Shown: positions 1 through 28,534, counted from the stretch's first letter. The stretch: DNA of 64,000 bases from Halorubrum vacuolatum (GCF_900188065.1 NZ_FZNQ01000007.1:62001-126000); one strand, 5' to 3'. Numbers and translations: made by a program. Notes: generated by a model from the sequence alone, not told the origin.

Positions 1-629
1 CCGCGAGCGACGTCACCGACGCGGTGCGGGCGATCAACTACTACGAGCGGATCGAGTGGATCTCCCCGGACGCCGCGGACGGCCTCCGTGATTTCCTCTC
101 CGGCTTCGGCACGGTCGACCGCAATATCGTCGACCGGCCGGGAACCGCCCGGCTCGTCCGCGAACACCACACCCGCAGCCTTCGGTACATCACCCAGCTC
201 AACGGGACGAGCCCGCAGACCGTCCTGCTCGACCGCTGGGACGACCTCGCCGGTGGCTCGCTCGTCGGCGGATCGGTTCCGGATCCGGCCCCGCGTCGCC
301 GGCCGAGGGGACGGAGCCGACAGCACGGTGACGCCCCCGGCGGACGGCAAGCCGCGCCGCGGACGACCGACGCCGCGCCGCAGGCGGCACGCGATGCATA
401 CGATGACGCGCGGACGGCACGCGACAGTGAGGGCGACCACGGGGTTCGTGACGGTTCGAACGGCCACGACACGCCGCGGGAGGACAACGGCGCTCACGAG
501 GCACAGCCCGCGGGACGCGACCGTACGGGTCGCGAGGCGAACGGCACGTCGCCGCGCCCGATGAACGACCCGAACCCGCGTTCCGACCGCGCCGACCCGG
601 CCGACGGAGGGTGGGACGATGGGTATTAG
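1..629 (+). CDS. arlCDE: archaellum accessory protein ArlCDE-type (FlaCE/FlaD), C-terminal part
   Basis: The reading frame is open from base 3, so the 5' end lies outside the window. The visible start, residues AINYYERIEWIS, then a short helical segment and RSLRYITQL, matches the conserved C-terminal domain of archaeal FlaC/D/E, cytosolic ring proteins that link the archaellum motor to chemotaxis input. After about residue 85 of the visible part comes a tail of roughly 115 residues rich in Arg, Asp, Gly and His with no recognisable domain; its many arginines are unusual for a haloarchaeal protein. The end overlaps arlF by 11 bases, so the genes are co-transcribed. Confidence 0.8.
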   Translation, partial: ASDVTDAVRAINYYERIEWISPDAADGLRDFLSGFGTVDRNIVDRPGTARLVREHHTRSLRYITQLNGTSPQTVLLDRWDDLAGGSLVGGSVPDPAPRRRPRGRSRQHGDAPGGRQAAPRTTDAAPQAARDAYDDARTARDSEGDHGVRDGSNGHDTPREDNGAHEAQPAGRDRTGREANGTSPRPMNDPNPRSDRADPADGGWDDGY

Positions 630-1131
630 CGTCTCGGCATCCACCGCGATCATCGTCGCGGGGTTGTTCTTCGCGTTCACCGCGTTCTACCCCGTCGCAG
701 CCAACGGCTTCGATCGCGTCACCGACGCCACCCACGAGGTCAACGAGCGCGCGCTGGAACAGCAGAACACGGACGTCTCGCTCGTCTCGGCCATCCTCTT
801 CGAGGGCGAGGAGGACGCTGCCGACGAGCTCGTCATCGAGGCGGACAACGACGGGTCGGCCGGTCAGGTCGTGAGCGACACGACGCTGCTCGTCGACAAC
901 GAGTACGTCGCGCTCGATGCGGTCGACACGTCGGTTTCGGACGGCGAGGATGAAAGCGCCACGACCGACCTCTGGCTTTCGGGGGAGACGCTGACGATCA
1001 CGCTGACCGACGACGCGCTTGATGGGGACGTGTCCGATGTCGCCCGCGTCGTCCTTGTGACCGAATCGGGCGTCCAGGCCGCCGCCGAGGTCGAACCGGA
1101 AGACGACGAGGAGAACGGAGGCGAGGAGTAA
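619..1131 (+). CDS. arlF: archaellum stator protein ArlF (FlaF)
   Basis: 170 residues. One N-terminal hydrophobic segment (residues 6-28) is followed by an acidic beta-rich domain, the family layout in which the soluble domain sits in the pseudo-periplasm. In other archaea ArlF binds the S-layer and, with ArlG, anchors the rotating motor. Position supports the call: it overlaps the arlCDE end and precedes arlG by one base. The last 15 residues are almost all Glu/Asp. Annotation rests on topology, size and gene order more than on a motif. Confidence 0.85.
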   Translation: MGISVSASTAIIVAGLFFAFTAFYPVAANGFDRVTDATHEVNERALEQQNTDVSLVSAILFEGEEDAADELVIEADNDGSAGQVVSDTTLLVDNEYVALDAVDTSVSDGEDESATTDLWLSGETLTITLTDDALDGDVSDVARVVLVTESGVQAAAEVEPEDDEENGGEE

Positions 1132-1132
1132 C

Positions 1133-1627
1133 ATGGCAAGCGTCCCAGTCTCCCATCTCATCCTCTTCGTGGCGAGCCTCGTCATCGCCGCCGGCGTCGT
1201 CGGCACGGTGACGACGGGTGTCGACCGGGTGAGTTCGGCGGTCGACGACGGGAGCCTTGATGCGACCGAGGAGCTTCGGACCGACGTGACGATCATCTCC
1301 GATGCGAACGCGGGGGTGTACGATGCAGATGAAGACGAGGTGACGCTGTTAATAAAGAACACCGGCACCCAACGGCTCGCGCCGGACGGCTCCGATATCG
1401 ATCTCGTCCTCGACGGGACGTTCGTCCGTCCCGACGCCATGGAAGGGGAGGTCGTCTCCACGGAGGGCTCGACCGCTTGGGGGCGCGGCGACGTCCTGGA
1501 GTTAACGATCGACCTTGATGACGCCGATATCGATCCGCTTGAGCAGGACGGGGAAAGCGACCACCGGATCCACCTCACCGTCAATGGCGACGAGGAGCTG
1601 TTCCAGTTCCGCGTTGGAGGGGACTGA
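1133..1627 (+). CDS. arlG: archaellum stator protein ArlG (FlaG)
   Basis: 164 residues. Begins MASVPVSHLILFVASLVIAA, a hydrophobic N-terminal helix typical of haloarchaeal FlaG, followed by a beta-sandwich-like domain. Family knowledge: ArlG forms filaments capped by ArlF and is part of the stator. It starts one base after the arlF stop and ends two bases before arlH, so it sits within a tightly packed operon with no room for its own promoter. Confidence 0.87.
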   Translation: MASVPVSHLILFVASLVIAAGVVGTVTTGVDRVSSAVDDGSLDATEELRTDVTIISDANAGVYDADEDEVTLLIKNTGTQRLAPDGSDIDLVLDGTFVRPDAMEGEVVSTEGSTAWGRGDVLELTIDLDDADIDPLEQDGESDHRIHLTVNGDEELFQFRVGGD

Positions 1628-1629
1628 TC

Positions 1630-2382
1630 ATGGCGCGTGACACGAACCTGCTCTCGCTCGGCTTGGAGGACCGCGACCGGCTGAACAAGGAGCTCGGCGG
1701 CGGCATCCCGCGCGGCAGCATCGTGCTCATCGAGGGCGATTACGGCGCGGGCAAAAGCGCCATCTCCCAGCGGTTCTCCTACGGACTCGTCCAGGAGGGT
1801 GCCTCGGTCACATTGCTGTCGACGGAGCTGACCGTCCGCGGCTTCATCGACCAGATGCACTCACTGGAGTACGACATGGTGAAGCCGCTGTTAAAAGAGG
1901 AGCTCCTCTTTTTACACGCGGATTTCGACTCCGGTGGAGCCTTCTCGGACGACGACGGTGAACGCAAGGAGCTGCTCAAGCGGCTGATGAACGCCGAGGC
2001 GATGTGGCGCTCGGACGTCATCTTCCTCGACACCTTCGACGCTATCTTCCGGAACGACCCCACCTTCGAGGCGCTCGTCCGGAAGAACGAGGAGCGGCAA
2101 GCCGCCCTGGAGATCATCTCCTTTTTCCGGGAGATCATCTCACAGGGAAAGATCGTCGTGCTCACCGTCGACCCGTCCGCGGTCGATGACGACGCGATCG
2201 GCCCGTTCCGTTCGATCGCCGACGTCTTCCTGGAGCTGGAGATGGTCGAGGTCGGAACCGACATCCGCCGGCAGATCAACGTCAAACGCTTCGCGGGGAT
2301 GGGCCAGCAGGTCGGCGACACGATCGGCTTTTCGGTCCGCTCCGGCACCGGCATCGTGATCGAAAGCCGGACGGTCGCCTGA
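1630..2382 (+). CDS. arlH: archaellum motor regulatory ATPase ArlH (FlaH)
   Basis: 250 residues, RecA/KaiC-like fold. Walker A GDYGAGKS lies at about residues 36-43 and Walker B (VIFLDTFDAIF) at about 131-141. In this family ArlH binds nucleotide, often with little hydrolysis, and docks on ArlI, possibly as a switch for assembly or rotation. The start is two bases after the arlG stop. Length matches the family. A 103-base gap follows before arlI. Confidence 0.93.
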   Translation: MARDTNLLSLGLEDRDRLNKELGGGIPRGSIVLIEGDYGAGKSAISQRFSYGLVQEGASVTLLSTELTVRGFIDQMHSLEYDMVKPLLKEELLFLHADFDSGGAFSDDDGERKELLKRLMNAEAMWRSDVIFLDTFDAIFRNDPTFEALVRKNEERQAALEIISFFREIISQGKIVVLTVDPSAVDDDAIGPFRSIADVFLELEMVEVGTDIRRQINVKRFAGMGQQVGDTIGFSVRSGTGIVIESRTVA

Positions 2383-2485
2383 TCGTGTCGCCGTGGGTCC
2401 ACCGCCACGGCCGAACGGGCGGGACTCGCCCACAGGGCGGGTTCGGGACGCATCGAGAGACGAACGACATCTCACAAGGCGATAA

Positions 2486-4159
2486 ATGACAGACCACGGG
2501 ACCGCGAAACCCTCGGATGAACTACGAAAGGCCGCCATGCGGCGTCCCCACCTCCGGGAACACCTCCGCGAGTTCAAACAGATCACCGGGGAGTTCCCGC
2601 TGTTCATCGAGGAGCCGAAATCGGAGTACGAGTCGGACCGGCCGAACGTGCTCTATCCGGTCGGCGGTCCGATCTACTGTCACGTCTACGGCGACATCGG
2701 CCAGCAGACGAAGTACTACGCCATCGAGCCGGAGATGTCCGGCCCGCAGGCGACGGTCCTCGACCAGGTGAAAAACAAGCTGCTCACCGTCAGCGGCAAC
2801 CATCAGGCGCCGGAGTCGGAGGCCGAATACGACGACCTGATCGAACAGCTGTTGGAGGACGTCACCCACGTCGAAGGGCGACAGGACGGGTGGCGCTGGC
2901 TGATCGAGCGTGTGCTCAACTGGGGGAAACTGCCCGTCACCGAGGCGACCTACGAGGACATTCGCTACCGGCTCAACCGGGATATCGTCGGGCTCGGTCC
3001 GCTCGAACCCGTGATGCGTGACCCGGCGAACGAGGACATTCACGTCATCGGCCCCCACGAGTGCCACGTCGATCACGGCACGTTCGGGATGTTGGAGACG
3101 ACCGTCGATTTCGGCACCCGAAAGGCGTTCGACAACTGGCTTCGCAACATGGGCGAGCGCATCGGCGACCCGCTCTCCGATGCCGATCCGATCGTCGACT
3201 CGACGCTGCCGGACGGCTCACGTATCAACATCATCTACTCCGATGACGTCTCCGTGAAGGGCTCCTCGCTCACGATCCGGCAGGGCGAGGACACGCCGCT
3301 TTCGGTCAACCAGATCACCAACTGGGGGACGCTCTCGCCGCAGCTCGCGGCGTACCTCTGGCTCTGTCTGGAGAACGAACAGACGGTCTTCGTCGTCGGG
3401 GAGACGGCGTCCGGGAAGACGACGACGCTCAACGCCATCCTCTCGTATATCCCCCGGGACTCGAAGATCTATACCGCGGAGGACACCGCCGAGGTCATCC
3501 CGCCGCACAACACGTGGCAGCAGCTCTTGACCCGTGAGGGCGGCGATGAGGGATCCTCGGACGTCGACATGTTCGATCTGGTCGCCGCCGCGTTGCGTTC
3601 GCGTCCCGACTACATCATCGTGGGTGAGGTTCGTGGGGCGGAGGGGCGGATGGCCTTCCAGGCCGCCCAGACGGGTCACCCCGTGATGCTCACGTTCCAC
3701 GCGTCCGACATCGTCTCGATGATCCAGCGGTTCACCTCCGAGCCGATAAACGTCCCCGAGACGTTCATGGACAACGCGGACGTCGCGCTCTTCCAGAACC
3801 GGGTGAAACAGGGCGACGACGTTCTCCGTCGGGTGACGAGCGTCCAGGAGATCGAGGGCTACTCGAAGGAGATGGACGGCGTCGTCACGCGCGAGGTGTT
3901 CAGCTGGGATCCCGTCGAAGACGAGATCGTCTTTCAGGGGATGAACAACTCCTACGTCCTTGAAGAGCAGATCGCGACGCTGCTCGGCTATGCGGACACC
4001 CGTGACATCTACGATGACCTCGCGTTCCGCGCGGAGCTCATCGAACGGATGATTCAGGAAGGGATCCTGGGCTATCACGAGGTCAACGAGGCGATCGACT
4101 CCTTCCAGCGCGACGGCGTCGAGGGACTCCCCTTCGATATGCATCGGAAGATCGGGTGA
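2486..4159 (+). CDS. arlI: archaellum assembly and rotation ATPase ArlI (FlaI)
   Basis: 557 residues, type II/IV secretion-type hexameric ATPase. Walker A GETASGKTT is at about residues 304-312, a Walker-B region DYIIVGEVRGAE at about 374-385, and the downstream TFHASD is the usual His box. The roughly 200-residue N-terminal domain is longer than in bacterial PilB-type enzymes, as expected for haloarchaeal FlaI. It powers archaellin insertion and filament rotation at the inner face of the membrane with ArlH and ArlJ. Confidence 0.95.
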   Translation: MTDHGTAKPSDELRKAAMRRPHLREHLREFKQITGEFPLFIEEPKSEYESDRPNVLYPVGGPIYCHVYGDIGQQTKYYAIEPEMSGPQATVLDQVKNKLLTVSGNHQAPESEAEYDDLIEQLLEDVTHVEGRQDGWRWLIERVLNWGKLPVTEATYEDIRYRLNRDIVGLGPLEPVMRDPANEDIHVIGPHECHVDHGTFGMLETTVDFGTRKAFDNWLRNMGERIGDPLSDADPIVDSTLPDGSRINIIYSDDVSVKGSSLTIRQGEDTPLSVNQITNWGTLSPQLAAYLWLCLENEQTVFVVGETASGKTTTLNAILSYIPRDSKIYTAEDTAEVIPPHNTWQQLLTREGGDEGSSDVDMFDLVAAALRSRPDYIIVGEVRGAEGRMAFQAAQTGHPVMLTFHASDIVSMIQRFTSEPINVPETFMDNADVALFQNRVKQGDDVLRRVTSVQEIEGYSKEMDGVVTREVFSWDPVEDEIVFQGMNNSYVLEEQIATLLGYADTRDIYDDLAFRAELIERMIQEGILGYHEVNEAIDSFQRDGVEGLPFDMHRKIG

Positions 4160-4200
4160 TTCAGTGCCGATGAGACGACTCCAATGGTGATCTCGCTCCC

Positions 4201-5937
4201 ATGTCAGTAAAACAGGCTGGAAACTCGGTCGCGACCGCGATGGCGGTCACCTCCGAGCTGTTGGAGTCGTACGACCAGCTCGACATCTCGAAACGCCAGT
4301 ATCTCGGCTACGTCCTCGTGCCGGCGGTCGCGCTGTTCGGCGTCACCGTCCTCGCGGGCCTCTTCGCGCCGTTGCCGCTCGCCGCGCGGGTTCCCATCCC
4401 GATGATCGGGGGGTTGGCGGTCGTCTCGGCGGTCGTCTACCCGAAGATCTACCTCTCCAGCCGGGAGAACCACATCGACAACCAGCTCCACCTCGTGATG
4501 ACACATATGACCGTGTTGTCGACGACGAACATCGACCGCATGGAGGTGTTTCGGACGCTCGCGGCCGAGGAGGAGTACGGCGTCGCCGCCGAGGAGATCG
4601 GCCGGATCGTTCACCTCGTGGATACGTGGAACCAGAGCCTCGATGACGCGTGTCGCCGTCGGGCGAAGAAGGTCCCCTCCGAGGCGATGGGCGATTTCTT
4701 CGATCGGCTCGGCTACACGCTCGGGGCGGGTCAGCCCTTGGAGGACTTTCTCGTCTCCGAACAGGACGTGATGCTCTCACAGTACGAGACGCTGTATGAG
4801 TCCTCGCTGTCGAATTTGGAGGTGATGAAGGACCTCTACATGTCGATGATCCTCTCGGTGACGTTCGCGCTCGTCTTCGCCATCGTCCTCCCGATCCTCA
4901 CCGGCAACGACCCGACCGCGATGGTCGCGGCCGTCATCGTCCTCTTCGTGTTCGTCCAGCTGGGCTTTTTCGTCGCGATCCGTGCGATATCGCCGCATGA
5001 CCCCATCTGGTATCACCCCGAGGAGCGTTCGCCCGGCGATCTCAAACTCTGGGGGTCGCTCGTCCTCGGCGGCGTCGCCTCGCTTCTGCTCATCGGGATC
5101 ACCGCCGCGGGCATGTTCGGGTACGGACCGGGCTTGCCGGGGCTCCTGTTCTTCCTCGACACCGTTCGGCTCCCGTTGTATCTGGCGGTGCCGATCACGC
5201 CGCTCATCGTGACGGGGTTCGTCCTTCGGCGCGAAGAGCAGGCGATCACCGCCCGCGACGAGGAGTTCCCCTCCTTCATTCGGGCGCTCGGGGCGACCGA
5301 GAGCGCGAAGCAGTCGACGACGACGGACGTGTTGACCACGCTCCGTGACAAGGACTTCGGGACGCTCTCGCCGGCGATCACCCGGCTGTACCGGCGGCTC
5401 AACATGCGGATCAGTACCGAGGGGGCGTGGCGTGCGTTCTCACGGGATACGCGCTCGTATCTCATCCAGAAGTTCTCCGAGATGTACCTCGTCGCCCGCC
5501 GCATGGGTGGGGAGCCGAAACAGCTCGGTGAGCTGATCTCGAAGAACATGAGCGCCGTCAACAACCTTCGCGAACAGCGCCGGCAGGCAGCGGTGACGTT
5601 CATCGGACTCATCTACGGGATCACGGCGGCGGCGACGTTCGCGTTCTTCATCGGGCTGGAGATCGTCGCGATCCTCGCCGAGCTGTCCGCGGATTTCGAG
5701 CTGGATCAGATGGATATCGGCCAGATCATCTACCCCGGCGCGTACGACATTCCGCTCATCGAGTACCTGCTCCTCACGGTCGTCATCTTCAACGCCGCGC
5801 TCTCCTCCCAGATGATCCGCACGATCGACGGCGGCAACCCGGCGAACGGCTACATCCACTTCGTGTTGCTCACGTGGCTCGGCGCGCTCACCGCCATCGC
5901 GACCCGGACGCTCGTCAACGCGCTGTTGACGATCTGA
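4201..5937 (+). CDS. arlJ: archaellum platform membrane protein ArlJ (FlaJ)
   Basis: 578 residues with about nine predicted membrane spans: two near residues 38-80, a group at about 215-340, and the last three in residues 465-575. Two cytosolic basic/helical loops (about 85-210 and 340-460) are the TadC/GspF-like domains that contact ArlI. This is the membrane platform of the archaellum. It follows arlI after 41 bases and is the last arl gene of this run. Confidence 0.94.
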   Translation: MSVKQAGNSVATAMAVTSELLESYDQLDISKRQYLGYVLVPAVALFGVTVLAGLFAPLPLAARVPIPMIGGLAVVSAVVYPKIYLSSRENHIDNQLHLVMTHMTVLSTTNIDRMEVFRTLAAEEEYGVAAEEIGRIVHLVDTWNQSLDDACRRRAKKVPSEAMGDFFDRLGYTLGAGQPLEDFLVSEQDVMLSQYETLYESSLSNLEVMKDLYMSMILSVTFALVFAIVLPILTGNDPTAMVAAVIVLFVFVQLGFFVAIRAISPHDPIWYHPEERSPGDLKLWGSLVLGGVASLLLIGITAAGMFGYGPGLPGLLFFLDTVRLPLYLAVPITPLIVTGFVLRREEQAITARDEEFPSFIRALGATESAKQSTTTDVLTTLRDKDFGTLSPAITRLYRRLNMRISTEGAWRAFSRDTRSYLIQKFSEMYLVARRMGGEPKQLGELISKNMSAVNNLREQRRQAAVTFIGLIYGITAAATFAFFIGLEIVAILAELSADFELDQMDIGQIIYPGAYDIPLIEYLLLTVVIFNAALSSQMIRTIDGGNPANGYIHFVLLTWLGALTAIATRTLVNALLTI

Positions 5938-20550: not shown

Positions 20551-22587
20551 ATGGACCTCGAGGCGATCCCGGGCGTCGGCGAGAAGACGGCCTCGGCGCT
20601 GCGGACGCTGGAGGACCCGGAGACGGTCGTCGAGTCGGGTGACGTCGCGGCGATCGCCCGCGCGCCCGGCGTGAACGAGGCGCGGGCGGCCCGTATCGCT
20701 CGCGGAGCGATCCGCCGGCGACACGACGATCTCGGTCGGCTGCTCGCGACCGACCGCGCCCGGGAGATCTACCGCGATGCGGTCGGACTCCTTCAGGACC
20801 GGACCGTCACCGACTACGCCGCGAAGCGGCTGGAGACGTTCTATCCGAGCGGGTCGGCCTCGCGGATCGCGGAGGCGCAGGCGTTCGTGACGGCGGCGAT
20901 GGAGCGGGAGCCGACCGCCGCGGTGCTCGATGCGCTCGCCGACGTCGAACCGCTCACTACGCCGCCCACCGTCCGGGTGCGTGACCGGTGTCTCGCGACC
21001 GCGGACGCGGAGACGTACGCGAAAGCGGAGGCGGCGATGCCGGAACTCTCCGTCGAGACGGTGGAGAACCCGCGTGATATCTCCGAACTCGCCCGCTCGT
21101 ACGCGACGGTGATCGTCTTGGACGAGTCGTTCGCGGGCCTCGACGTCGAGGGCGACGTCCACGTCCGACCGGACGCCCTGCAGACGCCCGCCGAAACGGT
21201 TCCGGAGCGGCTGCTCTCGTTTTTCGCGGCGAACCGCGACCGGCTGCTCGCGGCCGCACGCGTCCACGAGGCCGCGGGACTGGAGCCGGCGGCCGACCTC
21301 GACCGCCTGCGCGACGCGCTTTCACGACTCACGGACGACGCGACGATCGTCGGCGACGACGAACTGGGCCGGCTTACCGATGCCGTCTCCGACCTCGATG
21401 CCGCCGTCGCCACGGCGGAGTCCGTCGCGGACGATCGACTTCGGGACGCGATCCGCGAACGCGACGTCACCATCGAGGGGACCGACTTCCTCTCGCTCGT
21501 CGAGCAGGGCGCCCGCGTGGACTCGTTGCTCGACCGTGAGCTGGCCGACGAGTACGACGCGGCGCTCCGGGCGGCCCGCGAGCACCTCGCGGACGCGCTC
21601 CGACTCGACCCCGGTGAGGCCGAACTCGCCGCCCGGGCGTTTCCCGAGGGCGACCCCACGTTCCCCGTGACCGCCGATGATGCCGCGGTTTCCCAGCTGC
21701 GGACCGAGCTCTCCGTCGCCCGCGACCGTCGAGCCGCCCGCCTGAAGGCGGCGCTGGCGACCGACCTCGGGGAGCTTCGCGACCCGGTCGAGACGCTCGT
21801 GGCGGACGCGCTCGAACTCGACGTCGAACTCGCCATCTCCCGATTCGCCCGCGACTACGACTGTGTCATGCCGCGGGTGGTCGATCCGGCCGGCGACGGC
21901 GAACGCGATACCGACGCCGACGCCGGCACCGGGTCCGTCGACACGACACGCGGCTTCCGTATCGAGGGCGGTCGCTCGCCCCTGCTGGACGTCGAGTTCG
22001 AGGCCGTCGACCCCGTCGCGTACGAGGTGCGCGGGGTCACGCTCCTTTCCGGGGTGAACTCCGGTGGCAAGACCTCGCTGCTCGACCTCGTCGCGCTCGT
22101 GGTCATCCTCGCGCACATGGGGATGCCCGTGCCCGCCCGTTCGGCGACCGTCGAGCGTTTCTCGGAGGTCCACTACTACGCGAAATCACAGGGGACGCTC
22201 GATGCGGGCGCGTTCGAGGCGACGCTCCGTGACTTCGGGGACCTCGTCGCCGGCGCGACCGGCCGGTTAGTGCTCGTCGACGAGCTGGAGTCGATCACGG
22301 AGCCGGGTGCGTCCGCGAAGATCATCGCGGGTATCCTGGAGGCGCTCGACGGGCAGGACGCGACGGCGGTCTTCGTCTCACACCTCGCCCGGGAGATCCG
22401 CGAGGCGGCGGCCGCGCCCGTCGCCGTCGATGGCATCGAGGCGACTGGGCTCGAAGACGGCGAGTTGCGCGTCAACCGATCGCCGAAGAAGGACCACCTC
22501 GCACGGTCGACGCCGGAGCTCATCGTCGAAAAGCTCGCCGAGGAGCGCGGCGACGACTTCTACGGCGACCTCTTAGAGAAGTTCTGA
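20551..22587 (+). CDS. MutS-related ATPase with N-terminal helix-hairpin-helix (archaeal MutS5-like)
   Basis: 678 residues. Residues 1-50 hold two HhH units (IPGVGEKTASAL and APGVNEARAARI), the centre is long helices, and the C-terminal ABC-type ATPase has Walker A GVNSGGKTS (near 502-510), Walker B VLVDELESI and a signature-like EPGASAKI segment. There is no mismatch-recognition domain, unlike the true MutS at 56036-58861. Archaeal MutS5/HhH proteins are thought to act on branched DNA or recombination, not mismatch repair. TATA-like CCTTTTGC at 20518-20525. Confidence 0.85.
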   Translation: MDLEAIPGVGEKTASALRTLEDPETVVESGDVAAIARAPGVNEARAARIARGAIRRRHDDLGRLLATDRAREIYRDAVGLLQDRTVTDYAAKRLETFYPSGSASRIAEAQAFVTAAMEREPTAAVLDALADVEPLTTPPTVRVRDRCLATADAETYAKAEAAMPELSVETVENPRDISELARSYATVIVLDESFAGLDVEGDVHVRPDALQTPAETVPERLLSFFAANRDRLLAAARVHEAAGLEPAADLDRLRDALSRLTDDATIVGDDELGRLTDAVSDLDAAVATAESVADDRLRDAIRERDVTIEGTDFLSLVEQGARVDSLLDRELADEYDAALRAAREHLADALRLDPGEAELAARAFPEGDPTFPVTADDAAVSQLRTELSVARDRRAARLKAALATDLGELRDPVETLVADALELDVELAISRFARDYDCVMPRVVDPAGDGERDTDADAGTGSVDTTRGFRIEGGRSPLLDVEFEAVDPVAYEVRGVTLLSGVNSGGKTSLLDLVALVVILAHMGMPVPARSATVERFSEVHYYAKSQGTLDAGAFEATLRDFGDLVAGATGRLVLVDELESITEPGASAKIIAGILEALDGQDATAVFVSHLAREIREAAAAPVAVDGIEATGLEDGELRVNRSPKKDHLARSTPELIVEKLAEERGDDFYGDLLEKF

Positions 22588-22589
22588 TC

Positions 22590-23228
22590 CTATTCCAGCC
22601 GCAGCCCGCCGGCCTCCTCGGCGGCGCGGATCAGGTCGGCGATCGAGTCGTCGGGCGAGAGTCCCTCGCTCGCGGCGAAGCGTTTGAGCGCGACGGTCGG
22701 GATCTCGACGGGGGTGTCGGCGGCGACGAGCAGCAGTCCGAGCGCCTCCGGCGGCGGGGAGTCGCCGCCGGCGTTGGCGGCGAACCACGAGACGAGCGCG
22801 TCGAAGGTGTCGGTGACGTCGTTCGAGACCATGCGGTTGCGGCTGGTCTCCCCGCGGGCGTGGAGGGTCGCGTCGAAGCCGTACGCGAAGCCGTCGTCGT
22901 CGAAGGAGCTCGCGAGCCACCGGCTCACCGCCCGTCGGTCGACCTCGCCGCTCGCGGTTGCAGGCCGTGCGCGATGGCCACCGCCCCCGCCCGCGGTGCT
23001 CGCGCGTGGGTCGGCTCCCGTGGGTTCGCGTTCGCTGGCGTGTTTCGGTTCGGCGGGGGTCTCGAAGCCGGAGTCCTTCGTGAGGGGATCGGGTGGGGGC
23101 GTGCCGTCGACGTTCGGGCGGCCGCTCGTGCCGACGACGTAGCGGCCGTCGTCGATCTCCGCGACGCGCTCGTCCTCGGTGAAATCGAGGTCGTCGGGCG
23201 TCGCCGGCGACTTGTCGTCGTCACTCAT
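22590..23228 (-). CDS. uncharacterised haloarchaeal protein (probably DUF7500)
   Basis: 212 residues. An acidic, Pro/Gly-rich low-complexity half (1-100, with a GGGGG run) precedes a compact helical domain (about 105-212) containing RWLASSFDDDGFAYGFDATLHARG. I think it is the haloarchaeal DUF7500 family, with modest confidence. It lies 51 bases downstream of the last archaellin gene on the same strand, so read-through or a link with motility is possible but unproven. Confidence 0.55.
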   Translation of the reverse strand: MSDDDKSPATPDDLDFTEDERVAEIDDGRYVVGTSGRPNVDGTPPPDPLTKDSGFETPAEPKHASEREPTGADPRASTAGGGGGHRARPATASGEVDRRAVSRWLASSFDDDGFAYGFDATLHARGETSRNRMVSNDVTDTFDALVSWFAANAGGDSPPPEALGLLLVAADTPVEIPTVALKRFAASEGLSPDDSIADLIRAAEEAGGLRLE

Positions 23229-23279: not shown

Positions 23280-24062
23280 TTACAGCGCGACCGCGTCGCG
23301 GTCGATGAGCGAGTCGGGAACACGGACCTCCTCGATGGTGGTCGCGCCGGAGGCGGTCGTCAGGCGGACCTCCATCGTGTCGCCGCCCTCGAGGTCACCG
23401 GCCCAGGCTTGATCGCCCTCAACCGAGTCGTCATTAACTTCACTGACGTCATTGTTATTCATCGGAACGCCCTCCTCGAAAGAGAAGTAGACGTTACTAC
23501 TGGTGTCGTCATCCTCAAATGCGTAGCCAGCAAAACTGATCTGGTACCGGTCACTCGAACTGGTGATCACCGAATCCTCACCGTCTCCAGTAATTTCACT
23601 GATGGCAACCGGTGCTTCAGTGTGGTCCGCATTCGAATCATCTGCATCGAGTGTGCTGCCCGGGTCATCGACCCCATCTCCAAGGACGACCTGCTCGACG
23701 CCGTCGTCAGTGATGAGTTCGGCGGTAACGTCCTCGAGATCGATGTCGTCCGCGCCCGGTGCTTGCGTTACGGTTAGGTCGACCCCATATAACGCGAGGT
23801 CGTCACCATCGGCACCTTCCGAGCTGTCGATATCATCATCGGTGATCTCGGCGACCTGTCCAGTCGCGGACTGGACCTCGATACGATCACTCACTTGACT
23901 GGAACTCTCTTCACCCGTTGCCTCCGCTTGCGTTTGGAGGAAGCCAGCGGTGTTGATGAGCACGCCGGCGGCGATCGCCGCGACAAGCACCATTGCGATG
24001 AACACAATGAGGGTGCCGATACCCACCTGACCGCGCTCCTCATCCGTTATAAACTCGAACAT
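23280..24062 (-). CDS. archaellin, fourth of the tandem array (subtype II)
   Basis: 260 residues. Class III signal peptide MFEFITDEERG, cut after the Gly by the prepilin peptidase, then the invariant [15 protein letters not shown] hydrophobic helix that forms the filament core. The C-terminus [23 protein letters not shown] matches the second gene of the array. The central region (about 65-220) is variable and acidic. There is no N-x-S/T sequon. TATA-like TCTTAAGTA on the minus strand (24122-24130) lies about 60-68 bases before the ATG. Confidence 0.96.
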   Translation of the reverse strand: MFEFITDEERGQVGIGTLIVFIAMVLVAAIAAGVLINTAGFLQTQAEATGEESSSQVSDRIEVQSATGQVAEITDDDIDSSEGADGDDLALYGVDLTVTQAPGADDIDLEDVTAELITDDGVEQVVLGDGVDDPGSTLDADDSNADHTEAPVAISEITGDGEDSVITSSSDRYQISFAGYAFEDDDTSSNVYFSFEEGVPMNNNDVSEVNDDSVEGDQAWAGDLEGGDTMEVRLTTASGATTIEEVRVPDSLIDRDAVAL

Positions 24063-24121
24063 GTTGGTTGTGTGCGCCCGAAACTTTTCTGACGGGCTTA
24101 TTTTGAAGGATGCTGATCATC

Positions 24122-24130
24122 TACTTAAGA
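24122..24130 (-). promoter_or_regulatory. promoter of the fourth archaellin gene
   Basis: Minus-strand TCTTAAGTA resembles the box in front of the first archaellin (CTTTAAGTA) and sits at a similar distance from its ATG. A second AT-rich stretch at 24099-24106 is an alternative. Confidence 0.45.
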
Positions 24131-24240
24131 TCCCGGTGCCAGCTATTTATTCTGATAACGCTCGACTGAGCACGCCACGTTTCGACGTTACGATCCTGGT
24201 GCGACGGATCCGGTTGTGCGGCTCGTTGGCACAGGCGCTT

Positions 24241-24245
24241 AAAAA
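24241..24245 (-). terminator. T-run terminator after the third archaellin gene
   Basis: Minus-strand run of five T about 20 bases after the archaellin stop; such U-runs are the usual archaeal termination signal. Confidence 0.5.
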
Positions 24246-24264
24246 GTATTAGCGGTGAATGCCG

Positions 24265-24984
24265 TTACAGCGAGACGGCGTCGCGGTCGATGAGCGAGTC
24301 AGGGACACGGACCTCCTCGACGGTGGTCGCGCCAGCGGCCGTCGTCAGACGGACTTCCATCGTGTCGCCACCCTGAAGGAAGCCTTCCCAGGTTCCTTCG
24401 TCGGGTGCAATATCGTCTGCCCCCTCTTCAAAGGCACCATCGTCCATGTCACCCTCGTTAGCACCATCGAAGTCGATAATGTACCGATCACCGTTATCGG
24501 TAAGGACGTTATCATCACCGTTCCCGCCCAGTTCGGAAATGTGAGTGATATCCTCATCGTCGCCGCCGTCTTGATCAAGGACAACTTGATTGACGCCGTC
24601 GTCGGTGATCATCTCGGCGGTGACTTCATCCAGATCAATGTCGTCAGCTCCAGGTGCTGCGGTGACGGTCAATGACACTTGACTGATAACGGAAGTATCA
24701 GGTGATTCACCACTACCTACCTCGCCACTACCGTCGACTGCCTCGAAGTCCCCGCTGTCAAACGTTCCTTCCGTCACGATACCAGTCGCACTCTGCACTT
24801 CAAGTCGGTCGCTCACTTGACTTGCACTCTCTTCGCCCGTTGCCTCCGCTTGCGTCTGGAGGAAGCCAGCGGTGTTGATGAGCACGCCGGCGGCGATCGC
24901 CGCCACCAGCACCATCGCGATGAACACGATGAGTGTGCCGATACCCACCTGACCGCGTTCCTCCTCCGTTATAAACTCGAACAT
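24265..24984 (-). CDS. archaellin, third of the tandem array (subtype I)
   Basis: 239 residues with the same class III signal ([11 protein letters not shown]) and hydrophobic N-terminal core as its neighbours. The C-terminus [23 protein letters not shown] and the phrase GVNQVVLD match the first gene of the array (subtype I). The middle is variable and shorter than in subtype II. No N-x-S/T sequon. Start at 24984 (MFEF) is chosen over 25011 because the signal peptide is fixed by family alignment. Confidence 0.96.
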
Positions 24985-25044
24985 ACGTTTTGTGGCTCGA
25001 TGCCCGCGCACGCGAGCACTACTCGAAAGGCCGTTGTCATCATC

Positions 25045-25052
25045 AATAAGCG
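25045..25052 (-). promoter_or_regulatory. promoter of the third archaellin gene
   Basis: Minus-strand CGCTTATT lies about 61-68 bases before the ATG at 24984, the same spacing as the other two archaellin promoters. Confidence 0.45.
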
Positions 25053-25145
25053 TACGGTGCCGATTATCATACGTGATTTCAGCTCATTCGATCACGGGCG
25101 ATATCGGCGGTGGCTGCACCGCTCAACGTGGTCGTAGTCGTGTAT

Positions 25146-25151
25146 AAAAAA
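25146..25151 (-). terminator. T-run terminator after the second archaellin gene
   Basis: Six T on the minus strand, 15 bases after the stop at 25167, would end the two-gene transcript. Confidence 0.55.
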
Positions 25152-25166
25152 GGGAACAGTGCGCGT

Positions 25167-25967
25167 CTACAGCGCGACGGCGTCGCGGTCGATGAGCGAG
25201 TCGGGGACGCGGACCTCTTCGATCGTGGTCGCGCCGGAGGCGGTGGTCAGACGGATCTCCATCGTGTCGCCGCCTTCGAGGTCACCGGCCCAGGCTTGGC
25301 TTCCTTCGCGCTCGTCTACGTCATTACTGATTCCGTCGTCAGTCGGGACAACATCCCTGAAGGAGTAGAAGACGTCGTCCTCACCCTCTTCTTCGAGCGC
25401 GTATCCAGCCAATCGGATCTGGTAACGGTCACTCGAGTCGGTGATCACGTTATCATCGCCGGACTCGGTGATGCTGTCCACGTACACGGGTGCTACTGTC
25501 TCGATGTCGCCAATTTCATTAATATCGTCAGCGGTCGCGGCATCGGCATCTTCCAGTGGGACGCTAGGATCATCCACACCGTCACCGAGAACGATCTGCT
25601 CGACACCCTCATCGGTGATGAGTTCGGCCGTTACATCATCGAGGTCGATGTCGTCCGAGCCCGGTGCCTGTGTCACGGTGAGGTCGACCCCGTACAGCCG
25701 CAGATCACTTTGTCCTTCCGAGCTCTCGATTTCATCGCTATCGTCGAACCCGCCAACGAGCCCGGTCGCGGACTGGACTTCAATGCGGTCGCTCACTTGG
25801 CTTGCACTCTCTTCGCCCGTCGCCTCCGCCTGCGTTTGGAGGAAGCCAGCGGTGTTGATGAGCACGCCGGCGGCGATCGCCGCGACGAGCACCATCGCGA
25901 TGAACACGATGAGTGTGCCGATACCCACCTGACCGCGCTCCTCTTTGTCTGTAATAAATTCGAACAT
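25167..25967 (-). CDS. archaellin, second of the tandem array (subtype II)
   Basis: 266 residues, the longest copy. Class III signal MFEFITDKEERG, conserved core helix, and C-terminus [23 protein letters not shown] as in the fourth gene. Central parts also match that gene (GVDLTVTQAPG, SSDRYQI, SQAWAGDLEGGDTM), with clusters of differences between them. No N-x-S/T sequon. Only four bases separate its ATG from the stop of the first gene, so these two are co-transcribed and share one promoter. Confidence 0.96.
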   Translation of the reverse strand: MFEFITDKEERGQVGIGTLIVFIAMVLVAAIAAGVLINTAGFLQTQAEATGEESASQVSDRIEVQSATGLVGGFDDSDEIESSEGQSDLRLYGVDLTVTQAPGSDDIDLDDVTAELITDEGVEQIVLGDGVDDPSVPLEDADAATADDINEIGDIETVAPVYVDSITESGDDNVITDSSDRYQIRLAGYALEEEGEDDVFYSFRDVVPTDDGISNDVDEREGSQAWAGDLEGGDTMEIRLTTASGATTIEEVRVPDSLIDRDAVAL

Positions 25968-25971
25968 GGTC

Positions 25972-26679
25972 TTAGAGTGAGACGGCGTCGCGGTCGATCA
26001 ACGAGTCAGGGACACGGACCTCCTCGACGGTGGTCGCGCCGGCGGCCGTGGTGAAGCGAACCTCCATGGTGTCGCCGCCTTCAAGATGGCCGACCCAAGA
26101 CCCGGCGTCTTCACCGTCTTCTCCGTATTCCGGACTGCTACTTAGGTCGTTGAAGATACCACCGTCACTGCCATCCACCTGATACCCAGCGAACGAGACG
26201 GTGAAGCGGTCGCTACTATCGGTGATGACGTTGTCGTCACCCTCGACGTTGAGCCCGTCGATCTCGACGAGTTCATCATCATCGAGCACGACTTGGTTCA
26301 CACCGCTGTCGGTGATGAACTCGGCCGTCACGTCTTCGAGGTCGATATCATCGGACCCTGGTGCCTGTGTCACGGTAAAGTCGACAGTATAAATACCGTC
26401 GAAATCAGCGTCATCATCTCCGGGCTCTTCCAGTGATGAACTTCCGCCATCTTCGTCAATCCCCGCAACCTGTCCGGTCGCGGACTGGACCTCGATACGG
26501 TCGCTCACTTGGCTCGCACTCTCTTCGCCCGTTGCCTCCGCTTGCGTCTGGAGGAAACCAGCGGTGTTGATGAGCACGCCGGCGGCGATCGCCGCGACGA
26601 GCACCATCGCGATGAACACGATGAGGGTGCCAATACCCACCTGACCCCGCTCTTCCTCGTTTGTGATTGCTTCGAACAT
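25972..26679 (-). CDS. archaellin, first of the tandem array (subtype I)
   Basis: 235 residues. Signal MFEAITNEEERG then the [15 protein letters not shown] core helix, variable acidic centre, and C-terminus [31 protein letters not shown] and the C-terminus group it with the third gene. No N-x-S/T sequon. MFEA at 26679 is chosen over an in-frame ATG at 26694 by alignment with the other three. It is the promoter-proximal gene of a two-gene unit. Confidence 0.95.
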   Translation of the reverse strand: MFEAITNEEERGQVGIGTLIVFIAMVLVAAIAAGVLINTAGFLQTQAEATGEESASQVSDRIEVQSATGQVAGIDEDGGSSSLEEPGDDDADFDGIYTVDFTVTQAPGSDDIDLEDVTAEFITDSGVNQVVLDDDELVEIDGLNVEGDDNVITDSSDRFTVSFAGYQVDGSDGGIFNDLSSSPEYGEDGEDAGSWVGHLEGGDTMEVRFTTAAGATTVEEVRVPDSLIDRDAVSL

Positions 26680-26742
26680 TTTGTCTCTCTGCAACGACCC
26701 GCATCTGCCCGGCGGGCGTTATCGGAGACGAGCCCGTTTCCA

Positions 26743-26751
26743 TACTTAAAG
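26743..26751 (-). promoter_or_regulatory. promoter of the first archaellin pair
   Basis: Minus-strand CTTTAAGTA about 64-72 bases before the ATG at 26679, predicting a 5' leader of about 40 bases. No clear Shine-Dalgarno sequence is seen in front of any of the four archaellin starts. Confidence 0.6.
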
Positions 26752-26858
26752 ACTCTCCACAAAATATCACACCGGATAAACCGACGCAGTCTAGCGGTTT
26801 TCAGGTATATTTCGGGCCGTAAAAACGCGAGTAAACAGTCCGGGACGCCGCCCGTTTC

Positions 26859-27194
26859 TCACTTCTGAAACTTGGTGAGATCGCTCTCGGGGATCACGAA
26901 CTCGCGTGTGCCCGGTTCATAGACGACGAGGCTGACCGCGACGAGCGACGTCGCCGCCGCATACAGCCCGGTGTTCACCGCGAGCAACGCGACCGGGTTC
27001 GCGACCGTCCCGGCGAACCAGAGCGCGGGCGTCCCGACCGCGGCGGCGACGATCAGCCCGAACCCGGCCATCAACGCCGCCATCGACCGCCGCCCGGACT
27101 CACGATACGCCGAGACCGCGAACGCAAAGAGCACGCCGCCCGCGAGCGCCAACACCGTCGTCGTCACCACGTACGTCCCCGCCAACGGATCCAT
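26859..27194 (-). CDS. four-helix membrane protein (DUF7521-type)
   Basis: 111 residues with hydrophobic spans at about 8-27, 37-56, 60-78 and 82-98, and a short soluble C-terminus ending FVIPESDLTKFQK. I think this is the haloarchaeal DUF7521 family, commonly found next to a winged-helix regulator, as here (divergent, 27383). TATA CTATAAAG at 27217-27224 makes the ATG at 27194 leaderless. Function unknown; a membrane partner of the regulator is a guess from position. Confidence 0.65.
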   Translation of the reverse strand: MDPLAGTYVVTTTVLALAGGVLFAFAVSAYRESGRRSMAALMAGFGLIVAAAVGTPALWFAGTVANPVALLAVNTGLYAAATSLVAVSLVVYEPGTREFVIPESDLTKFQK

Positions 27195-27382: not shown

Positions 27383-27721
27383 ATGACGGGGGAGAACCTG
27401 ATCACGGTGCTCGGCAACAAGTACAACACGGACATCCTGAGCGCGACCGGCGAGGCGAAATCGGCACAGGATTTAACCGAGGAGCTGGACGTCCCGATCG
27501 CGACCTGCTACCGCCGGATCAACGAACTCGAGGAGGCGGAGCTGCTGGAGCTCCACGACCGCCCGCTCTCGGATGAGCACCGCCGCGTGAAGGTGTATCG
27601 CCGGAAGGTCGACGGCGTCGAGGTCGACTTCCGCGACGGCGTCACCGTCGAGATCGAGGAGCGCTCGGCCGTGAAGAACCGCCTCGACGACGTCTGGCGG
27701 AACCTCTCCTCGCCGGAGTAA
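27383..27721 (+). CDS. ArsR-type winged-helix transcriptional regulator
   Basis: 112 residues. Residues about 25-65 (SAQDLTEELDVPIATCYRRINELEEAELLEL) form a clear helix-turn-helix with wing, and the rest is a beta-rich tail (VKVYRRKVDGVEVDFRDGVTVEI). No metal-binding cysteine pair, so it is not a metal-sensing ArsR. It lies between the archaellin array and a KaiC-like ATPase. Control of the archaellin genes or of the adjacent membrane-protein gene is plausible but untested. Confidence 0.83.
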   Translation: MTGENLITVLGNKYNTDILSATGEAKSAQDLTEELDVPIATCYRRINELEEAELLELHDRPLSDEHRRVKVYRRKVDGVEVDFRDGVTVEIEERSAVKNRLDDVWRNLSSPE

Positions 27722-27805: not shown

Positions 27806-28534
27806 TCAGAACGACGGGCTGTCGGTTCGACCCATCATCGAGAAGCCGGCCGCGCGCTCGTGGATGATGATGCCGCCCTGGCCGATCTCCATCGGGAAGA
27901 TGTCGGTATCGATCTCCTGTTTCCGCATCTTTGCGACCCAGACGTATCGGTTGACCCCCGATTCCGTCGGCGTCTGGATGAAGTAGATGTTCCCGTCGGT
28001 GAGGAAGTTCTCCAGGCCGACCTCCGTCTCCGGGAACACCGCCCCCTGCTCGTTGATGAGCAACGAGGTGAGCCCGTTCGCCTTCAGGATGTCCGAGAAC
28101 TTGAGCAGGTAGGTCCGTTTCTCCTGTTCGTTCTCGAAAAAGAGCTGGAACATCGAGAGCGAATCGAGCACGAGCCGGTCGAAGTCGCCGTCCTCGATCG
28201 TCTCAAGCAGTCGGTCGACCGCCGTCGAGAAGTCGGCCTCACGCAGCATCTGCCGTTTATCAAGGATCACGATGTCGCCGTCGTCGACGTGCTCGCCGAA
28301 GGATTCGAAGCCGACCGATTCCGCCGCCGCGCGGATGTCGTCTTCGTCCTCCTCGAAGGAGACGTATACCCCGCGTTCGTCGTACTCGGAGACCCCGGTA
28401 TAGAGGTACTGGATGCCGAAGATGCTTTTTCCGGTGCCCGGGTTGCCGGAGACGAGGACCGTCGACTGCGCCGTGATGCCGCCGGAGAGGATCGAGTCGA
28501 GTCCATCGACCCCTGTAGGGACGAGCGATGACAT
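27806..28534 (-). CDS. single-domain KaiC/RAD55-family ATPase
   Basis: 242 residues. Walker A GNPGTGKS near residues 30-37 and Walker B FDRLVLDSLSMF near residues 118-129. A single RecA-type domain of the kind annotated as HTR-like or KaiC domain protein in haloarchaea, often close to signalling genes. Distinct from ArlH at 1630. TATA ATATAAA at 28561-28567 gives a leaderless start. Role likely signalling rather than recombination; inferred from family and neighbours. Confidence 0.85.
   Translation of the reverse strand: MSSLVPTGVDGLDSILSGGITAQSTVLVSGNPGTGKSIFGIQYLYTGVSEYDERGVYVSFEEDEDDIRAAAESVGFESFGEHVDDGDIVILDKRQMLREADFSTAVDRLLETIEDGDFDRLVLDSLSMFQLFFENEQEKRTYLLKFSDILKANGLTSLLINEQGAVFPETEVGLENFLTDGNIYFIQTPTESGVNRYVWVAKMRKQEIDTDIFPMEIGQGGIIIHERAAGFSMMGRTDSPSF

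Follow-up and report, generated by a model that had tools for sequence, protein, structure and literature searches.

For Halorubrum vacuolatum four archaellins have been published by Pyatibratov et al. 2020 (WP_089384684/625/626/627 in Table A1 of PMC7349177); they have 239, 260, 266 and 235 aa, belong to the FlaB1 branch and are divided between three operons, one of them with a GACC spacer, and the table also holds duplicated flaB1-flaB2 operons in other species. In the Halorubrum flaB1-flaB2 operon the two proteins are ~50% identical and the spacer is 2 bases, and where the operon has been duplicated the sisterhood of genes 1 and 3 and of genes 2 and 4 is clear. For bacterial flagellins concerted evolution (PMC6053082) and a dual-level diversity (PMC7018530) have been described, with conserved ends, a varied exposed region and homogenised paralogs; the archaeal genes listed in PMC6053082 as evolving in concert are all from methanogens. 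In Haloferax volcanii ChIP-seq revealed the CsmR operator TATCA(N4)TGATA, adjoining the TATA box, with the winged-helix gene situated beside the archaellins and a KaiC-like regulator, CirA, having an overlapping regulon (PMC13286277, published in 2026).

The locus analysed here is situated in a window of 64,000 nucleotides from Halorubrum vacuolatum (the whole stretch studied, NZ_FZNQ01000007.1:62001-126000) and encodes the same four protein sizes, with the same GACC spacer, as the set given in PMC7349177. The gene set is already published, and only the mosaic pattern and the comparison with a sister species are new; the relations among the four genes, their mosaic ends and the sister locus are not described in the available part of the paper. 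In the accessions listed there g4, g2 and g1 are consecutive (625-627) and g3 is set apart (684), and g3 could therefore lie elsewhere in that assembly. In the window misassembly is unlikely, because no exact repeat longer than 68 bases is shared among the four genes and the region is free of N. The locus shares its slot, flanks, promoter type and a two-gene bicistron with the flaB1-flaB2 operon but differs in that its genes are 70-77% identical to each other, with a spacer of 4 bases or none, and the four archaellins form a separate clade together with G013 and three Haloferacaceae-level relatives of another genus (G121-G123). The conserved ends, varied exposed region and homogenised paralogs resemble those of the bacterial flagellins, although here the gene is an archaellin in Halobacteria and the homogenisation is restricted to the gene ends. 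The operator next to the TATA box, the winged-helix gene beside the archaellins and the KaiC-like gene all have counterparts at this locus, although CsmR binding in Halorubrum is predicted from sequence.

The array and its genomic slot

Four intact archaellin ORFs were found in the window, all on the minus strand and here called g1 to g4 in order of transcription (Table 1). All four exceed the cut-off of PF01917, the Pfam archaellin family, in a profile search and carry the N-terminal class III signal peptide and the conserved hydrophobic helix, with a stretch of 28 residues common to all four, and they are linked to the arl/fla assembly genes (FlaDE, F, G, H, I and J at window 24-5937). The intergenic gaps are 4 bases (GACC) between g1 and g2, 182 bases between g2 and g3 and 202 bases between g3 and g4. 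This confirms the first-pass annotation in its description of the first pair as bicistronic with a 4-base gap, and the separate promoters and T-run which it gave to the second pair were also recovered, as an operator and a TATA-like element before each of g3 and g4 and a T5 after g3. The block equivalent to codons 1-69 of g1 is also present in g2-g4. An AlphaFold model of g4, of low-to-medium confidence (pLDDT 59.5), predicts a core helix at residues 7-50 and a strand-rich domain at 61-247; the type-II inserts lie near 132-148 and 181-219, where the prediction is poor. A search of Rfam gave no match at the archaellin locus.

Table 1. Features of the archaellin locus and its flanks; positions are those of the window.
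Feature	Position	Strand	Basis
DUF7500 protein, flanking the archaellin slot downstream (conserved)	22590..23228	-	
g4, archaellin type II', 260 aa	23280..24062	-	ortholog h3
TATA-box-like element of g4, CTTAAGTA	24122..24129	-	sequence
CsmR-like operator upstream of g4, TATCAGAATAAATA, 8/10	24144..24157	-	
T5 run after g3	24241..24245	-	
g3, most divergent archaellin, 239 aa	24265..24984	-	possible ortholog h4 (weak)
TATA-box-like element of g3, CTTATTG (weaker)	25044..25050	-	sequence
CsmR-like operator upstream of g3, AATCACGTATGATA, 9/10	25065..25078	-	
T6 run after g2, probable terminator of unit g1-g2	25146..25151	-	
g2, archaellin type II, 266 aa, without own promoter	25167..25967	-	ortholog h2
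GACC spacer g1/g2 (bicistronic unit)	25968..25971	-	sequence
g1, archaellin type I, 235 aa	25972..26679	-	ortholog h1 of sister species G072
Codons 1-69 of g1, the homogenised 5' block, with signal peptide, core helix and first strand	26473..26679	-	
TATA-box-like element of g1, TTTAAGTA, 14 bases past operator	26743..26750	-	sequence
CsmR-like operator upstream of g1, TATCCGGTGTGATA, 9/10	26765..26778	-	motif from PMC13286277
Small membrane protein, DUF7521-like (slightly below cut-off), upstream flank	26859..27194	-	
Winged-helix protein, 112 aa, probable CsmR	27383..27721	+	HTH_20; size and position beside archaellins as for CsmR; syntenic in genus
KaiC-like ATPase, probable CirA	27806..28534	-	Pfam KaiC; CirA described as KaiC-like

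In the genus the slot is bordered on one side by genes for a response regulator, a KaiC-like, a winged-helix and a DUF7521-like protein and on the other by DUF7500, with FlaDE-J usually coming next within ~10 kb, and in most relatives it holds flaB1-flaB2. In the window the winged-helix gene is probably csmR and the KaiC-like gene probably cirA, to judge from their size, position and domain. The window keeps the slot, but a rearrangement has parted it from the FlaDE-J cluster and turned it round relative to these genes. The junction of DUF7500 and mutS, 2 bases apart at window 22587-22590, marks the rearrangement point; in relatives FlaDE-J follows DUF7500 in the same orientation. In one genome of the genus, G013 (L044 6162), the slot holds just one archaellin, from the broader clade to which those of the window belong, and no flaB1-flaB2, so the content of the slot has apparently been replaced between species. 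The three genomes of another genus of the family (G121-G123; L103, L114 and L128) have 15-16 archaellin-profile matches each, and their archaellins are the nearest relatives of the type found in the window.

In the mature part of the eight archaellins of the window and the sister locus (L088 8251-11869) no N-glycosylation sequon was found (0 of 8) and Asp+Glu amounts to 20-24%, the genus medians being 14% Asp+Glu and 2-4 sequons. The oligosaccharyltransferase AglB is encoded in both genomes.

Promoter regions

When analysing the upstream regions a CsmR-like operator was identified before g1, g3 and g4, 94-99 bases upstream of the ATG and a constant 14 bases ahead of the TATA element, which is the fixed placing of the motif looked for in members of a CsmR regulon. 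The chance of a match per upstream region is 0.026 for at least 8/10 and 0.0013 for at least 9/10 positions, and upstream of g2 no CsmR-like operator was found (best match 5/10). A pattern scan of the window revealed 15 operator-like sites, with 3.4 expected, some of them also before csmR. Among relatives the site precedes 60 of 65 archaellin genes with a promoter of their own (median distance 97 bases) as against 1 of 55 operon-internal ones, the counts being from related and not independent sequences. As an inverted repeat preceding the TATA box the element at first seemed new, but it is the published CsmR operator (PMC13286277). The locus would thus be transcribed as three units, g1-g2, g3 and g4, each provided with a TATA box and an operator of CsmR type and under one apparent regulator, which favours joint expression and disfavours switching.

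Most archaellin genes with their own promoter, other families included, have a GC-rich hairpin (often GCCCG...CGGGC) in the 5' leader, in the window at about 26695-26725, 24990-25025 and 24068-24095. The mean folding z-score is -1.07 over 45 leaders, which are not independent, and the hairpin had no Rfam match in the window; it could stabilise or regulate the mRNA.

Relations among the four genes and the sister locus

The first-pass annotation regarded the four genes as two alternating subtypes, I-II-I-II. As a description of peptides this holds, since g1 and g3, and likewise g2 and g4, share their C-termini and the phrases GVNQVVLD and GVEQ(V/I)VLGDGVDDP are exact, but as a grouping the alternation is weak. 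In the four genes alone the informative DNA sites number 27 for 1+3/2+4, 21 for 1+2/3+4 and 7 for 1+4/2+3, so that the first pattern differs from the last (p=0.0008) but not from the second (p=0.47); in an alignment of eight genes, with those of the sister species, the same patterns count 33, 21 and 8. The alternation rests on the similarity of g2 and g4 together with three C-terminal residues (A/S, V/I and S/A), which occur in the window in the combinations AVS and SIA. In the sister genes h1-h4 the combinations are AIA, SIS, SIA and SVA; the residues have been reshuffled and are therefore not stable subtype markers, and the locus corrects this tempting but wrong use of C-terminal signatures. 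Type II is a real type, because the phrase GVEQ(V/I)VLG and the type-II inserts are conserved in h2 and h3, and g2 and g4, with 77% identity and inserts in common, are true siblings.

A search of 51 other genomes of the genus revealed close homologs only in G072, which also has four archaellins in the same slot and with the same flanks. The order there is I-II-II'-other (h1-h4), that is g1-g2-g4-(g3), with the two type-II genes adjacent. The central domains pair h1 with g1, h2 with g2 and h3 with g4, and possibly h4 with g3; the pairs g2-h2 and g4-h3 are backed by 10 central amino-acid sites against 1 and 1, while the pair g3-h4 is absent from the best tree (AU p=0.10). A comparison of promoters, made for positional as against cassette exchange of g3 and g4, gave homology of z=2.4 for g3-h4 and z=-0.7 for g4-h3.

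Trees made separately for the three parts of the gene differ from each other. The 5' ends (codons 1-69) group by species (g1-g4 90/91, h1-h3 90/94), and g1+h1 is rejected there (AU p=0.0012). The centres group by gene type, with the four type-II genes together (97/96) and a grouping by species rejected (AU p=5e-6), and the centre of g1 is 69.5% identical in DNA to that of h1 and 54-58% to those of the other genes. The 3' ends are mixed, with h2+h3 (97/98) and, weakly, g1+g3 (72/81); this is the only segment in which the expected union of g1 and g3 was obtained, as neither the full-length tree nor that of the centre makes them sisters. For the ortholog v the species pattern the 5' end gives site counts of 0:14, 1:12 and 1:15 and the centre gives 45:8, 46:8 and 16:13; by Fisher's test the two segments differ with p=9e-9, 8e-8 and 1e-5 for all sites and 0.0006-0.02 for third positions. 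Paralogs are closer than orthologs at the 5' ends (g1-g4, h1-h3) and partly at the 3' ends; in the centre they are not. The earlier suggestion that similar ends recombine and centres stay distinct is in this sense supported, as long-term concerted evolution. After correction no individual recent conversion tract was significant between any of the four genes of the window, and conversion here would therefore be old or patchy. From the sequences we infer that gene conversion at the ends, with the centres protected, is the best explanation of the mosaic.

Origin of the array and the archaellum filament

Taken together, the locus is best read as an older gene family, of three types or more, with conversion at the ends and three co-regulated units, not as a doubled I-II unit, a reading to which we give a probability of about 0.7. 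Tandem duplication of a two-gene unit, as proposed in the first-pass annotation, would have given I-II-I-II, its traces being partly obscured afterwards by conversion and by a swap in the sister. The C-terminal peptides common to 1/3 and 2/4 and the site pattern, of which 1+3/2+4 is the commonest, speak for such an origin, pair duplication is documented in the genus, and in rooted trees with 12 outgroup archaellins g1+g3 was neither recovered nor rejected (p=0.29-0.34); neither a grouping of g1 with g2 and g3 with g4 across the whole length nor a four-gene order common to distant genera was found. However, genuine pair duplications look different. As controls six genus loci with duplicated flaB1-flaB2 were used, one of them cut by a contig end, and in the five complete ones identities are 67-85% for genes 1 and 3, 68-91% for genes 2 and 4 and 48-55% for cross pairs, with gaps of 2/167-217/2 bases. 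In the window g1 and g3 are 70% identical, no closer than the cross pairs (70-73%), their DNA identity is the lowest of all six pairs (68.0%, and 54% in the centre, not above the cross pairs), g3 and g4 are without the tight spacing expected of a copied unit, and the sister order does not alternate. Duplication of the pair is on this evidence unlikely, and a duplication of the type II gene by itself, beside an older divergent g3, would fit better. One of these loci, used as a positive control for pair duplication, is the array of L037 1-3473. This is PWFW01000021.1, a MAG contig labelled Halanaerobiaceae (Bacillota) bearing a haloarchaeal flaB1-flaB2-flaB1-flaB2 array; it is almost certainly mis-binned, its archaellins falling inside the genus tree.

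The mosaic might also have arisen without conversion, if strong selection on the filament core kept the ends alike and the grouping by species reflected codon usage; the 5' end does encode a strongly constrained hydrophobic helix, and GC3 differs between the two species (63-71% v 83-92%). Against this, third positions of the 5' end follow species rather than orthologs (11:0, 10:1 and 10:1), whereas in the centre they show little or no excess of the species pattern over the third, uninformative one (5 v 4, 7 v 4 and 11 v 10), which makes GC drift an unlikely cause of the 5' result. The amino-acid changes SQVSD v SQVVD track species in 3 of 4 sister genes, and h1 and h2 share a tract of 134 identical bases, spanning 21 polymorphic sites and matched in length by none of 5000 permutations, so that selection in place of conversion is quite improbable. 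A switching system, in which copies swap their centres and so alter the surface of the filament, for instance as a defence against viruses, is very unlikely: uniform ends with divergent centres, a gene order unlike that of the sister and the replaced slot content would suit it, but promoters and operators are similar in all three units, among the four genes we saw no cassette that is silent or lacks a promoter, and the central types are still recognisable since the species split.

With an older family of gene types, the four-archaellin locus of Halorubrum vacuolatum would have been built in the genus-wide slot beside csmR and cirA from types I, II and II' and the divergent g3, type II having been duplicated alone before the window species and its sister separated. 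Within each genome gene conversion would since have prevented the 5' ends, and to some extent the 3' ends, from diverging, whereas the exposed central domains would have retained their identity. Transcribed as g1-g2, g3 and g4, each from a TATA box with a CsmR-type operator, all four proteins would most likely be made together and build one mixed filament, and such co-expression seems likelier than switching. The uniform N-terminal part would pack in the core and the varied centres, by analogy with solved archaella, would form the surface. A further idea, put forward tentatively and rather doubtful at present, is that end conversion together with whole-gene reshuffling (the order of g3 and g4 has changed relative to the sister) may allow four co-expressed subunits, unglycosylated and very acidic, to diverge at the surface and still replace one another within one filament.

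The locus bears on why haloarchaea keep several archaellins. It offers a natural experiment, the core of the filament having been homogenised while different surface types, apparently under a single regulator, have been retained from one species to another; it predicts a mixed filament, which is directly testable.
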